Positions 39,441-42,963 of a DNA stretch of 64,000 bases are shown one piece after another. The stretch spans positions 2,097,001-2,161,000 of the forward strand of contig NZ_BTFW01000001.1 in the NCBI RefSeq assembly GCF_033242265.1. The letters run 5' to 3'. How positions within the stretch are numbered: position 1 is the first letter of the stretch; each line of letters begins with the position of its first letter. The notes beneath the pieces are model-generated. The model was not told the DNA's origin, made no database searches, and saw only the letters and a program-made list of their open reading frames with translations. A program made the translations under genes and the position numbers. The stretch is from Novosphingobium sp. IK01 (lineage in GTDB: Bacteria > Pseudomonadota > Alphaproteobacteria > Sphingomonadales > Sphingomonadaceae).

Positions 39441-40226
39441 TTAATGCCCCGAGCACCCCGGATCGCGGGCGATGCGCATCGTCCGCAGGCCCGGCTTCAG
39501 CCCGTCGAGCACATGCAACTGGCCCCATTGCGGATCGCCGAGGCTCGACACCCCTTCGAGCAGCACGCGCAACGCGGCCATCGCGCCGAAGGTGCCCACC
39601 ATGCCCACCATCGCGCCCAGCACCCCTTGCGACGCGCAAGTATCGCAATCCTGTGCGTCGAAGGCATCGCCCACGAAGCAGCGGTAACAGGCGTGGCCGG
39701 GGCGGTGGCCTGCGAAATTGGCGACTTGTCCCTGAAAGCGGCCCAGCGCCGCGCTGGTAAGCGGCACCCCGGCGGCGACGCAAGCGTCCGAGACGGCCAA
39801 CCGCGTGGCGAAATTGTCCGAGCCATCGAGCACGAGGTCGGCCCCGGCGACGAGGGTTTGGGCATTGTCGCGTCCGATCCGGGTGCAATGGACGCTGGCT
39901 TCCAGCACCGGGTCGAACCGGGCCAGCCAGTCGGCGGCGGCCTGCGCCTTGGGCCGGCCGATATCGGCGGTGGTGAAGATCGTCTGGCGCTGGAGGTTGG
40001 AGGCCTCGATCCCATCGTCGTCGATCAGGGTGAAGCGCCCGATTCCCGCCCCCGCCAGATATTGCAGTGCGGGCGCGCCGATCCCGCCCAGCCCCACCAG
40101 CACGACATGCGAGGCCACCAGCCGCGCCTGCCCGGCCCCGCCCACTTCGGGCAGAACGATGTGACGGGCGAAGCGGTCGAGGCGATCGCGCGAAAGGGGG
40201 GCATGCGAAAGGGGAGCGGGTGTCAT
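39441..40226 (-). CDS. ThiF/MoeB-family adenylyltransferase
   Basis: 261 residues. E1-like enzyme that adenylates the C-terminus of a sulfur-carrier protein (ThiS or MoaD). The nucleotide loop VVLVGLGGIGAPALQYLAGAGIG, DDDGIEASNLQRQTIFTTADIG (Arg and Asp ligands) and DGSDNFATRLAVSDACV are typical. Zinc cysteines occur as CYRC and CDTC. No rhodanese domain is fused, so MoeB and ThiF cannot be separated by sequence alone. Start at 40226 by family length. Confidence 0.88.
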   Translation of the reverse strand: MTPAPLSHAPLSRDRLDRFARHIVLPEVGGAGQARLVASHVVLVGLGGIGAPALQYLAGAGIGRFTLIDDDGIEASNLQRQTIFTTADIGRPKAQAAADWLARFDPVLEASVHCTRIGRDNAQTLVAGADLVLDGSDNFATRLAVSDACVAAGVPLTSAALGRFQGQVANFAGHRPGHACYRCFVGDAFDAQDCDTCASQGVLGAMVGMVGTFGAMAALRVLLEGVSSLGDPQWGQLHVLDGLKPGLRTMRIARDPGCSGH

Positions 40227-40273
40227 GTTGCGCGGGGTAGGCCTCCGCGCCTCAAAATGCGAGAGAAACGCGC

Positions 40274-40441
40274 ATGAAAGATCGTCTCTGGATCGTACTC
40301 GTGCTGGCCCTGATCGCGGGGCTTCTGGCAGGATGGTGGGGCAAGGGCCGCTGGGCCGAACATCTCTGCGCGCAGCGCGGTGGCCTGTGGTTCGAACATG
40401 CGAGCGCCTGTGCGCAGGTGGCTGTGCGCAAACCAGCGTGA
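40274..40441 (+). CDS. Small single-pass membrane protein
   Basis: 55 residues. One N-terminal membrane segment (WIVLVLALIAGLLAGWW) is followed by AEHLCAQRGGLWFEHASAC, the C-x4-GG-x-W-x7-C pattern often seen in short secreted or membrane proteins of sphingomonads. The function is unknown. A weak purine-rich site (GAGAGAAA) precedes the ATG. The last part of the gene overlaps the beginning of the phased repeat region that leads to dnaA. Confidence 0.55.
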   Translation: MKDRLWIVLVLALIAGLLAGWWGKGRWAEHLCAQRGGLWFEHASACAQVAVRKPA

Positions 40442-40457
40442 AACCCTGAGCGGAACC

Positions 40458-40820
40458 TGTGTACCGGCAGGGGATACCCTTGGGCAAAGGCCCTGCAAAA
40501 GCCCTGCAAAAGCCCGGCAGAACGGGGGTACAAACGGGGGGAAACCGCTGGCTTACCGGTGCAAAAGCGGTGGACCGGCAGCGGACAAGCCGGTGCAAAC
40601 ACGGCGCACAGCCCTGTGGAAATCCTGATCACAAGTCTGTTGACCGGGCGTGCACTGCCTTGCGGAAAAACGGTGCATGACCCTGTTCAACACGGGCGCA
40701 CAACCTTGTGCAACAGTGGTGGACAGGGCTGTGACTATCGCGTGCACCGGGGGGGCAAAAGGCTGTGCAGGCCCGGTGGAGAGCCTGCGCAGGACTTGTG
40801 GAGTGAGGCGGGAAAACAGG
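40458..40820. repeat. Helically phased 22-23 bp degenerate repeat array next to dnaA
   Basis: Sixteen units begin at 40458, 40481, 40503, 40526, 40548, 40569, 40592, 40615, 40638, 40661, 40684, 40707, 40730, 40752, 40775 and 40797. Intervals are 21-23 bases (mean 22.6). Each unit opens with a motif like TGTGSAAAA and has a second G-rich/GTGCAC-like motif about 11-12 bases later. The best units (TGTGGAAAT at 40615, TGTGCAACA at 40707, TGTGGAGTG at 40797) resemble inverted, imperfect DnaA boxes (TGTGGATAA). The sequence is too degenerate for recent tandem duplication, so spacing rather than sequence seems conserved. Confidence 0.75.
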
Positions 40821-40857
40821 CCCGTTTCCGCCGCCCGAAGCGGGGGAAACGGGCCTG
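40817..40857 (-). terminator. Rho-independent terminator of dnaA
   Basis: A perfect 13-bp stem (CAGGCCCGTTTCC with GGAAACGGGCCTG) and a GC-rich loop. On the minus strand it begins 5 bases after the dnaA stop and is followed by TTTT. Confidence 0.92.
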
Positions 40858-40862
40858 CCGAA

Positions 40863-42323
40863 TCAGTCTTCGAGCTGGCGCAGCAGGGTGCGCACGTCGC
40901 CGTCCATGTCGGCGTCGCGGTTGCGCAGTTCCTCGATCAGGCGCACCGCGTGGATCACCGTGGAGTGATCGCGGCCACCGAACTTGCGCCCGATTTCCGG
41001 GTACGAGCGCGGGGTCAGCACCTTGGCGAGGTACATCGCCACCTGACGCGGGCGCACGATGGCGCGCGCGCGGCGCTTGGAGGCCATTTCCGTGCGGTCG
41101 ACGCGGTAGAACTGGCAGACCGTGCGCTGGATCTCGTCGATGGTGATACGGCGGCGGTTGGCCGAGAGGATGTCGGTCAACTGCTCTTCGGCCAGTTGCA
41201 GGCTCACCGGCTGGCCGGTCAGCTGGGCAAAGGCGATCAGCTTGTTGAGGCCGCCGACCAGTTCGCGCACGTTGCGGTTGATCGTGCGGGCGAGGAACTC
41301 GACCACGTCCTGGGGCACTTGCGCACTGGTGAAGCGCGAGAGGCGGTGATCGAGGATCTGGCGGCGCAGTTCGATGTCGGCGGGCTGGATGTCGGCGACA
41401 AGGCCCATCGAGAGGCGCGAGAGCAGGCGCTGCTCGACCCCGTCGAGCGCCTGGGGCGCACGGTCGGCGGCAACGATGAGGCGCTTGCCCGCGCTCATCA
41501 GCGCGTCGATCGTGTGGAGGAATTCCTCCTGCGTGCTCGCCTTGCCGATGATGAACTGGATGTCGTCGACCAGCAGCATGTCGAAGCCGCGCAGGCGCGA
41601 CTTGAACTCGATCATCTCGTTCTGGCGCATGGCCTGGACGAATTCGATCATGAACCGCTCGGCCGAGCAATAGAAGATGCGCGCGCCCGGATGGGCGGCG
41701 GCATAGCCATTGGCGATGGCGTGGAGCAGGTGGGTCTTGCCCTGGCCGGTCGAGCCCTTGAGATAGAGCGGCGAGAACTGCGGCGGCTCTGCGGCGGCCA
41801 TGCGCTGGGCGGCGTTCATCGCGAGGATGTTGGCCGAGCCCTGCACGAAGTCGGTAAAGGTCAGCGTGGGATCGATGCCCGAGGAGGCCGCATCGAAACC
41901 GGCCACGCTCGACGAAGCGGCGGCGGGCGCGGCGCGGGCTGCGGGGGCCAGCTTGAGCGCGGTTTCGTTGGCAGCCGCCGGAACGGTCAGCGCAGGCGCG
42001 GCCCCGCCAGCACCCATCCCGCCGACACGCAGTTCGGGCATGGCGCGGCGACGCGGGTGGACGGTGATGCGAACCTGGCGCACTTCGGCACGCGCGATCT
42101 TCCAGGCCAGCGAGAGACGGTCGGCAAAGCGGTCGGCCACCCAGTTGGCCGAAAATTCGGTCGGCAGGAACAGGTCGAGGGTGCCGGTTTCCTTGCAGAA
42201 GCTGCCCAGCTGGATCGGCTTGATCCACTGGGTGTGCAACTGCGGGCCAAGGTCCTTCTTGAGACCCTGGCTGATGTCGGCCCAGTCCGCGGCCAGGTCC
42301 AGAGCTTCCTGGTCCTCGCTCAT
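40863..42323 (-). CDS. dnaA: Chromosomal replication initiator protein DnaA
   Basis: 486 residues from ATG 42323. Domain I (LGPQLHTQWIKPIQL), a variable Ala-rich domain II, the AAA+ domain III with Walker A YLKGSTGQGKTHLLHAIANG and Walker B FDMLLVDDIQFI, and the domain IV DNA-binding helix with the DnaA signature (GGRDHSTVIHAVRLIEEL) near the C-terminus. DnaA binds DnaA boxes and opens oriC. The frame is open upstream to 42638; GTG/ATG codons there could extend the protein, but no family sequence is recognisable before SEDQEALDLAADW. Confidence 0.96.
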   Translation of the reverse strand: MSEDQEALDLAADWADISQGLKKDLGPQLHTQWIKPIQLGSFCKETGTLDLFLPTEFSANWVADRFADRLSLAWKIARAEVRQVRITVHPRRRAMPELRVGGMGAGGAAPALTVPAAANETALKLAPAARAAPAAASSSVAGFDAASSGIDPTLTFTDFVQGSANILAMNAAQRMAAAEPPQFSPLYLKGSTGQGKTHLLHAIANGYAAAHPGARIFYCSAERFMIEFVQAMRQNEMIEFKSRLRGFDMLLVDDIQFIIGKASTQEEFLHTIDALMSAGKRLIVAADRAPQALDGVEQRLLSRLSMGLVADIQPADIELRRQILDHRLSRFTSAQVPQDVVEFLARTINRNVRELVGGLNKLIAFAQLTGQPVSLQLAEEQLTDILSANRRRITIDEIQRTVCQFYRVDRTEMASKRRARAIVRPRQVAMYLAKVLTPRSYPEIGRKFGGRDHSTVIHAVRLIEELRNRDADMDGDVRTLLRQLED

Positions 42324-42742
42324 GCCCCCATCACGTCCTTTCCGGGCCGCCGCGGTCTGCCCGGCAGCGCGCCCGGCACCGACAGAAGCCATTGCAGCCG
42401 AAGCGCCGCGCGCCCCGCCACCGTTGCCGAATTGATCAATCTTCACGCTTAGCTGTCCCACGAATGTCCAGACCTCAAGCCAACTGGCAGCCCCGGCCTC
42501 ACATACCACCAAACCCGCGCACCAAACCCGCGACAGGATCCCCTGACGCAGACGAGACCGCCCGCCCGCCAGTGCCGGGCAGGCACGACGGTTGTCGTAT
42601 CGAGCGATGTTCCGTGACACCGAAAGGCCGTTCGGCACGCATCGCAGCGAACCGGCCGACCAGCGGCGTGAGGCCCTGTCTATGAGGCTCTGCGGGGGCT
42701 GTGAAGCCCACCGGGCGCAAAATTTCTGAAATAATTAGCCTT

Positions 42743-42844
42743 GACTCAACAACTGCGCCATAAACACACAAGTCTCTGATTCAAAACAAATTAATCAAAT
42801 GTCAGCCATGCGAATCGCCATGAATCCAAGCGACTAGGCGAATC
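42743..42844. promoter_or_regulatory. Cluster of five GANTC (CcrM methylation) sites in the dnaA promoter region
   Basis: GACTC at 42743, GATTC at 42778, GAATC at 42812, 42822 and 42840: five sites in 102 bases. CcrM methylates GANTC in many alphaproteobacteria, and in Caulobacter methylation state influences dnaA transcription. The density here is far above the chance rate of one per 256 bases. Confidence 0.6.
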
Positions 42845-42886
42845 TGCCCGCAGCCGACATGACACCGCACGCCGCCGAGACGAAAA

Positions 42887-42911
42887 TGGCCGGCGTTCAT
42901 CACGCCGGCCA
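42887..42911 (-). terminator. Rho-independent terminator of rpsT
   Basis: A 10-bp perfect stem, TGGCCGGCGT and ACGCCGGCCA, with a 5-base loop. On the minus strand it follows the rpsT stop by about 50 bases and ends in TTTTC. Confidence 0.92.
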
Positions 42912-42963
42912 AAGCCGTAATTCTGCGTAGCCCACCCTCCTTAGGAAGATGGGCCGGGCCGAA

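Follow-up and report, generated by a model that had tools for sequence, protein, structure and literature searches.

Directly downstream of dnaA in Novosphingobium sp. IK01 lies a degenerate, regularly spaced repeat array, and its position raises the question whether it is a replication origin, a platform that binds the initiator protein DnaA, or an element that acts in another way. We analysed it within a window of 64,000 nucleotides (contig NZ_BTFW01000001.1, positions 2,097,001 to 2,161,000; positions given without kb, Mb or the word chromosome refer to this window). The array is situated between the dnaA stop codon and a convergent small open reading frame, and its units read in the sense direction of dnaA, i.e., on the minus strand. 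The following features are relevant:

40863..42323, minus strand: dnaA, with the domains DnaA_N, Bac_DnaA ATPase and Bac_DnaA_C (Pfam)
40817..40857, minus strand: hairpin with a TTTTCCC tail, separating dnaA from the array (RNA folding of 40800–40866, z −5.0)
40807..40815, minus strand: weak first unit that overlaps the hairpin's T-tract (chain model: score 2.7, step 10)
40447..40805, minus strand: core array of 32 DnaA-box-like 9-mers, head to tail (autocorrelation, consensus scan, relatives' motif, chain model)
40484..40519, minus strand: most regular tandem stretch in the array, period 11, 3.3 copies (Tandem Repeats Finder)
40409..40446, minus strand: candidate extension of three units with steps of 12, 12 and 14, on the 3′ end of the small open reading frame (chain model)
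40274..40441, plus strand: small open reading frame of 55 amino acids facing dnaA, with a hydrophobic N-terminus by eye
39441..40226, minus strand: ThiF/MoeB-family gene, which follows the array in the reading direction of dnaA (Pfam ThiF)

Upstream of dnaA are the genes for ribosomal protein S20 and ferrochelatase. The encoded DnaA is identical (100%, 486 residues compared) to the DnaA of an N. capsulatum MAG, and the true start of the gene may lie further upstream than the annotated position 42323. The hairpin is likely the intrinsic terminator of dnaA, and it is absent from a simple terminator scan despite its strong fold. The initial annotation had set the edge of the array at the dnaA terminator, and this is borne out: the array starts at this hairpin, with its weak first unit on the T-tract. 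The far edge is uncertain since the three additional units overlap the 3′ end of the small open reading frame. The latter has no Pfam match; N. pokkalii and strain SG919 seem, by eye, to have a similar open reading frame in this position.

The autocorrelation of the region 40441–40820 has peaks at lags 11 (z 6.7), 12 (z 3.9), 22 (z 4.1), 23 (z 7.0), 33 (z 4.0), 34 (z 5.9) and 46 (z 5.6) and troughs at lags 15–17, 29 and 40. None of 1000 dinucleotide shuffles matched the values at these peaks, so the period is real. The positions of the peaks imply a true unit of about 11.3 bp and not of 22.6 bp as had been proposed: the longer period comprises two units, lag 11 being as strong as lag 23, and what had been described as a recurring half-unit motif is the unit itself. 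An unfitted scan with TTDTNCACA allowing up to two mismatches found 18 boxes in sense and 5 in antisense orientation, as compared to a mean of 6.1 and a maximum of 15 in 1000 shuffles of the sense strand. The distances below 60 bp among these 18 boxes are exclusively 11, 12, 22, 23, 33–35, 44–46, 55, 57 and 58 bp. A chain model placed 36 units over 40409–40815 with a mean step of 11.37, and the 31 steps of the 32-unit core are either 11 (22 times) or 12 (9 times). As steps of 11 and 12 carry no penalty in this model, it favours them, and the unfitted box distances are therefore the cleaner evidence for the pitch. The array reaches a chain score of 210, whereas the scores of 584 further pieces of 430 bp from the window (both strands) average 7.3 and have a maximum of 21; this maximum served as the cut-off for the relatives. 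Tandem Repeats Finder reports a single stretch within the array (40484–40519, period 11), which suggests growth through slippage or unequal exchange.

The letters of the units were compared with a motif derived from relatives. For this motif, EM training was carried out on the 25 dnaA 3′ regions with the strongest periodicity at 11, 12, 23 and 34 bp, the window species being excluded. A first, unconstrained run yielded a low-information T/C motif; a second run with fixed site density yielded GcTTgTCCACAG, which contains the DnaA box. Since the window species was left out of the training, these letters are independent of the window, whereas the pitch of the 25 training loci is not independent evidence because the loci were chosen for their periodicity. 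In the array the relatives' motif has 21 matches with successive gaps of 11, 12, 22, 23, 33 or 34 bp, as compared to at most 8 in the best plus-strand 370-bp stretches of the window. With TTATCCACA or TTWTNCACA as the yardstick of a DnaA box, the units of the window resemble DnaA boxes imperfectly: they agree with TTDTNCACA at 5–8 of the 9 positions, none of them being perfect, and only four units in the array have a single mismatch (consensus scan and chain model):

40558..40566, minus strand: TTTTGCACC, the top-scoring unit
40615..40623, minus strand: ATTTCCACA (TGTGGAAAT on the forward strand), a strong unit
40661..40669, minus strand: TTTTCCGCA, a strong unit
40707..40715, minus strand: TGTTGCACA

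Several units had been taken for imperfect inverted DnaA boxes, among them the one at 40615. The likeness is borne out, as this unit is among the best in sense orientation, but the boxes are not inverted: they are direct repeats on one strand. In the 360 kb of the genome examined the array is the densest box cluster (21 boxes per 350 bp; next 10; mean 1.3), and its chain score of 204.7 is the best of 3232 half-overlapping 430-bp pieces (both strands). The next score is 42.1; the next-best chains, at 2,424 kb within an open reading frame of 422 amino acids and at 2,416 kb, were not counted as arrays. Outside the array, phased pairs show at most a slight enrichment towards the origin (17 in the 90 kb near it vs. 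35 in 270 kb). Mapping of sinks by the genome-wide pair pattern was discarded as too noisy (up to three mismatches: 32 forward and 30 reverse matches vs. 10 and 19 for the backward pattern; 12 places inspected by eye). A short run of about 4–6 DnaA-box-like 9-mers with steps of 11–12 bp was seen at positions 2376305–2376362 of the chromosome, directly after a short open reading frame (84 amino acids from the first ATG) and about 38 kb from the hemE region.

Of 139 dnaA loci of relatives, 119 remained once duplicates and loci extending less than 200 nt beyond dnaA had been removed; the chain-model run and the unfitted box counts comprise the 113 loci with at least 1400 nt, excluding the window species. 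In the first 250 bp after dnaA of these 113 loci, the untrained pattern TTWTNCACA (up to two mismatches) occurs 190 times in sense and 73 times in antisense direction, whereas the control stretches 600–850 bp away contain 47 and 29 boxes. The distances between sense boxes (5–60 bp) are 11 or 12 bp in 38 of 139 cases, with other peaks at 22–24, 33–35, 44–47 and 57–58 bp and a small one at 31 bp; in the control stretches no pair distance reaches four counts. In the first 250 bp of the 89 held-out loci, which are still relatives, a chain score of at least 21 is reached 13 times in sense and 3 times in antisense direction and not once in either of two controls. Altogether 41 of the 119 loci attain this score: the window and the related MAG, 22 of the 25 used for training, and a further 17; locus L109, which has a GGDEF neighbour, scores 20.3 and thus falls just below the cut-off. 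The remaining 78 loci have no such chain (for example N. subterraneum 5.5, N. taihuense 4.8 and N. nitrogenifigens 7.0), and the array is therefore dispensable within the genus. From other families of the order, 19 loci were scored after dnaA, and none has an array (best score 16.5).

The 39 loci at which a chain starts within 120 nt of the dnaA stop have between 4 and 36 units. N. pokkalii (17 units), strain SG919 (19 units) and MAG J_51 (15 units) keep the same pitch in diverged sequences, which supports the initial view that the spacing rather than the sequence is conserved. Some members of Novosphingobium and of neighbouring genera have shorter arrays after dnaA, with the same pitch and orientation. 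The next gene at array-bearing loci varies (ThiF, SDR, AMP-binding, TetR and, in L100 and L117, GGDEF), and thus the array goes with dnaA and not with the neighbour. A k-mer enrichment across the relatives' loci was swamped by the ThiF/MoeB coding sequence. Between the window and the nearest relative (locus L056, a MAG), 12 of 324 box sites and 3 of 83 spacer sites differ, an equal degree of divergence; over its full length the array differs at 15 of 407 sites, about as much as the neighbouring ThiF gene (35 of 786). No indels separate the two arrays. Nine substitutions fall on specified box positions, two of them at a matching base, whereas 70% of these positions match (P 0.004 in a post hoc test on a small sample).

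Some further observations were made at the relatives' loci. In L177, L178, L180, L183, L184 and L198 the units after dnaA often read TTnTCGACAGG by eye, with a C-to-G change at box position 6. Downstream of its short box array, Novosphingobium sp. Rr 2-17 has, also by eye, a distinct tandem of roughly 15 bp with three copies of CTGGACAACCC. The genome of locus L005 contains a DnaA-ATPase-like protein stretch at 12 places with identical scores, presumably the ATPase of a multi-copy insertion element.

As to the origin of replication, the 10-kb pieces on either side of dnaA have a negative GC skew. Only the 2-kb piece 40001–42000 deviates (+0.11), which is probably due to the minus-strand coding of dnaA itself. 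All stretches sampled between 0.76 and 2.40 Mb (8- to 10-kb scale) have a negative skew, whereas it is positive in 12 of 13 between 2.41 and 3.43 Mb (exception 2.48 Mb) and in all five between 0 and 0.70 Mb. These signs place an origin-type switch at 2.40–2.42 Mb. At this place are parB (2,402 kb) and hemE (2,413,476–2,414,477), the latter next to a kinase-pyrophosphorylase gene, and published work puts the origin of most Sphingomonadaceae at hemE (PMC4741004). The gene dnaA is found at 2.138 Mb, so that skew switch, hemE and parB are 265–277 kb away from the array; the distance to the hemE region is about 277 kb or 7.8% of the chromosome, whose contig has 3,533,901 bases. The intergenic region between hemE and the kinase-pyrophosphorylase gene (368 bp, 2414487–2414855 of the chromosome) has an AT-rich dip with GC down to 0.45 and carries on both strands imperfect DnaA boxes of the type found in the array, the best being CTTTCCACA and GTTTCCACA. 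This region is likely the chromosomal oriC. The imperfection of its boxes suggests that the DnaA of the host works with imperfect boxes.

We suggest that the array serves as a scaffold on which DnaA binds cooperatively and is thereby titrated and perhaps inactivated, a reading to which, judged from the sequence, we give about an even chance. DnaA binding, low affinity, cooperativity, titration and any ATP hydrolysis are what we infer here. The 32–36 mostly low-affinity boxes, all in one direction and 2–3 bp apart, would form the scaffold, and DnaA, probably in its ATP form, would bind to it cooperatively as a head-to-tail oligomer. Such an oligomer is suggested by the steps of 11 and 12 bp, which correspond exactly to gaps of 2 and 3 bp between 9-mers. 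At a distance of about 277 kb from the origin, the array would be copied some time after initiation; its duplication would then withdraw DnaA, and may help to inactivate it, to an extent sufficient to hold back re-initiation. As the array is linked in cis to dnaA, each new copy of dnaA would bring its own sink. A platform or titration role was among the possibilities named initially, and the features of the sequence fit it.

Several properties of DnaA described for other bacteria are consistent with such a scaffold. In E. coli, DnaA is reported to prefer box pairs that are 2 or 3 bp apart, and at purH an increase of the gap from 3 to 4 bp strongly lowers DnaA binding while a decrease from 3 to 2 bp does not (PMC11317965). 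For T. maritima DnaA and two boxes in the same direction, binding is reported to be best at a distance of 2 bp (PMC10316083). The weak boxes of E. coli oriC are described as being filled cooperatively by ATP-DnaA (PMC5742627). The double DnaA boxes described for E. coli (Stringer et al. 2024, PMC11317965) are likewise 9-mers at a distance of 2 or 3 bp, as in all 31 steps of the core, and the table of that paper writes them in one direction; they are pairs, however, whereas the array is a chain of more than 30. The low-affinity arrays of E. coli oriC and boxes 3–5 of T. maritima oriC are similar as well, in that close boxes in the same direction bind ATP-DnaA as cooperative oligomers (PMC5742627, PMC10316083). 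They have, however, about five boxes per half and are located beside an unwinding element, whereas the array is off-origin and without an AT-rich element.

A further close parallel is datA of E. coli, a non-coding box cluster away from the origin whose essential boxes share one direction (PMC5742627); the boxes of the array are boxes by likeness only. According to the coordinates in PMC11317965, datA is about 467 kb from oriC, as compared to about 277 kb for the array. By analogy, the position and size of the array suggest a sink that may double after initiation like datA. The differences are considerable: datA has 5 boxes and an IHF site on which its activity is reported to depend (PMC4585315), and it includes high-affinity boxes (PMC5742627), whereas the array consists of 32–36 imperfect contiguous boxes next to dnaA. 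Thus the array has the off-oriC cluster in one direction but no IHF site within it at up to one mismatch; in the whole window there are five one-mismatch matches to the IHF consensus, and none of them is within 1.9 kb of the array. The DnaA-box clusters of Bacillus subtilis and Streptomyces coelicolor are described as repressing untimely initiation and are called datA-analogous (PMC5742627); we liken them to the array as chromosomal clusters of boxes. In the open-access literature, covered mostly by titles and the beginnings of abstracts, we recognised no description of a long phased DnaA-box array after dnaA and found none of datA-like control for the Sphingomonadaceae group.

Some findings count against the scaffold. 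There is no perfect box and no IHF consensus with up to one mismatch within 1.9 kb, 78 of the 119 loci stay below the chain cut-off, boxes and spacers have diverged equally from L056, and phased pairs are hardly, if at all, denser near the origin. In addition, DnaA boxes of E. coli are reported to accumulate on the lagging strand (PMC12371093); the boxes of the array are on the coding strand of dnaA, which a fork from hemE would copy co-directionally, and this too speaks against it. These points have to be weighed together with the alternatives. The array might bind DnaA but act locally, by a feedback on dnaA, for example as a roadblock against read-through into the next gene, as a shield from convergent transcription or as a partner in a promoter loop. 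Such a role, which we regard as rather unlikely, would agree with the array staying with dnaA while the next gene changes, with the small convergent open reading frame that runs into the array, and with the lack of a strong box by the relatives' motif in the region 5′ of dnaA (42331–42960, best score 6.0), as a feedback, if any, is then not obviously exerted at the promoter. On the other hand, the hairpin already separates dnaA from the array, 32–36 sites would seem to exceed the need of a roadblock, and most of the relatives examined have no clear array. Alternatively, a few functional DnaA boxes after dnaA could have seeded a repeat, which then grew by slippage in the N. capsulatum lineage and would by now be largely neutral. 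The regular 11-bp tandem, the range from 4 to 36 units and the equal divergence of boxes and spacers are all compatible with this history. We nevertheless hold it to be improbable, as the diverged arrays of N. pokkalii, SG919 and J_51 keep the pitch, as there are no indels relative to L056, and as substitutions at matching box positions are fewer than expected in the small post hoc comparison given above.

The array could also act as RNA or via RNA polymerase, either as a rut-like site for Rho loading or as a structured 3′ region of dnaA, the spacing of C and U giving the period. Regular pyrimidine spacing is a trait of rut sites, and the sense strand is richer in C (0.356) than in G (0.265). 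But the recurring letters include T-T-x-T and A-C-A-G, neither of which is known to be needed for rut. The fold of 40640–40780 is strong (z −5.2), although that of 40500–40640 is not (z 0.1), and the best 141-nt stretch is equalled in folding by 36 of 150 permutations of the units. The local signal is thus largely explained by the make-up of the units, and a conserved RNA structure was rejected. The whole array folds better than all but one of 60 unit permutations, so some additional pairing is possible. In the relatives the fold z is 0.1 and 0.3 (N. pokkalii), −1.0 (J_51), −2.8 and −2.2 (SG919) and −3.1 to −1.8 (N. capsulatum MAG); this range from 0.3 to −3.1 argues against a consistent RNA structure. 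Moreover, the hairpin precedes the array, and no Rfam family reaches the gathering score in 40200–41000, where the two matches, ar7 and P17, are both far below it. We consider an action as RNA quite improbable. Most improbable by far is a replication origin, be it the main one, an accessory one or what is left of an ancestral origin linked to dnaA. A dense group of DnaA boxes next to dnaA would speak for it, as this is the usual layout of origins in many bacteria, and an origin had indeed been among the initial proposals. However, the skew sign is steady at the array and changes at hemE and parB, about 277 kb away; GC is at least 0.59 in every 100-bp window of 39900–41300, so that the array has no AT-rich unwinding element, while the hemE intergenic region dips to 0.45; and the 19 loci of other families have no array after dnaA. 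The array has neither the skew switch nor the neighbourhood of hemE and was rejected as an origin on account of skew, hemE/parB position and base composition.

Returning to the scaffold, the linkage of the array to dnaA suggests a bolder reading in which source and sink are coupled by design. The array would polymerise a DnaA filament of at least 30 protomers, gene dosage and binding sites would double together, and this cis-linked pair would act as an IHF-free initiation timer in Sphingomonadaceae, which we think is possible but doubtful. Evidence for the initiator titration model has been described as long lacking in E. coli (PMC12371093). If DnaA binds, the locus would be a naturally occurring array in which more than 30 boxes point the same way at the cooperative pitch, and it would provide a test bed for long DnaA filaments on duplex DNA and for initiator titration. 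The graded lengths of the arrays, from 4 to 36 units, together with the arrayless species, would allow a comparative test of the coupling between source and sink.
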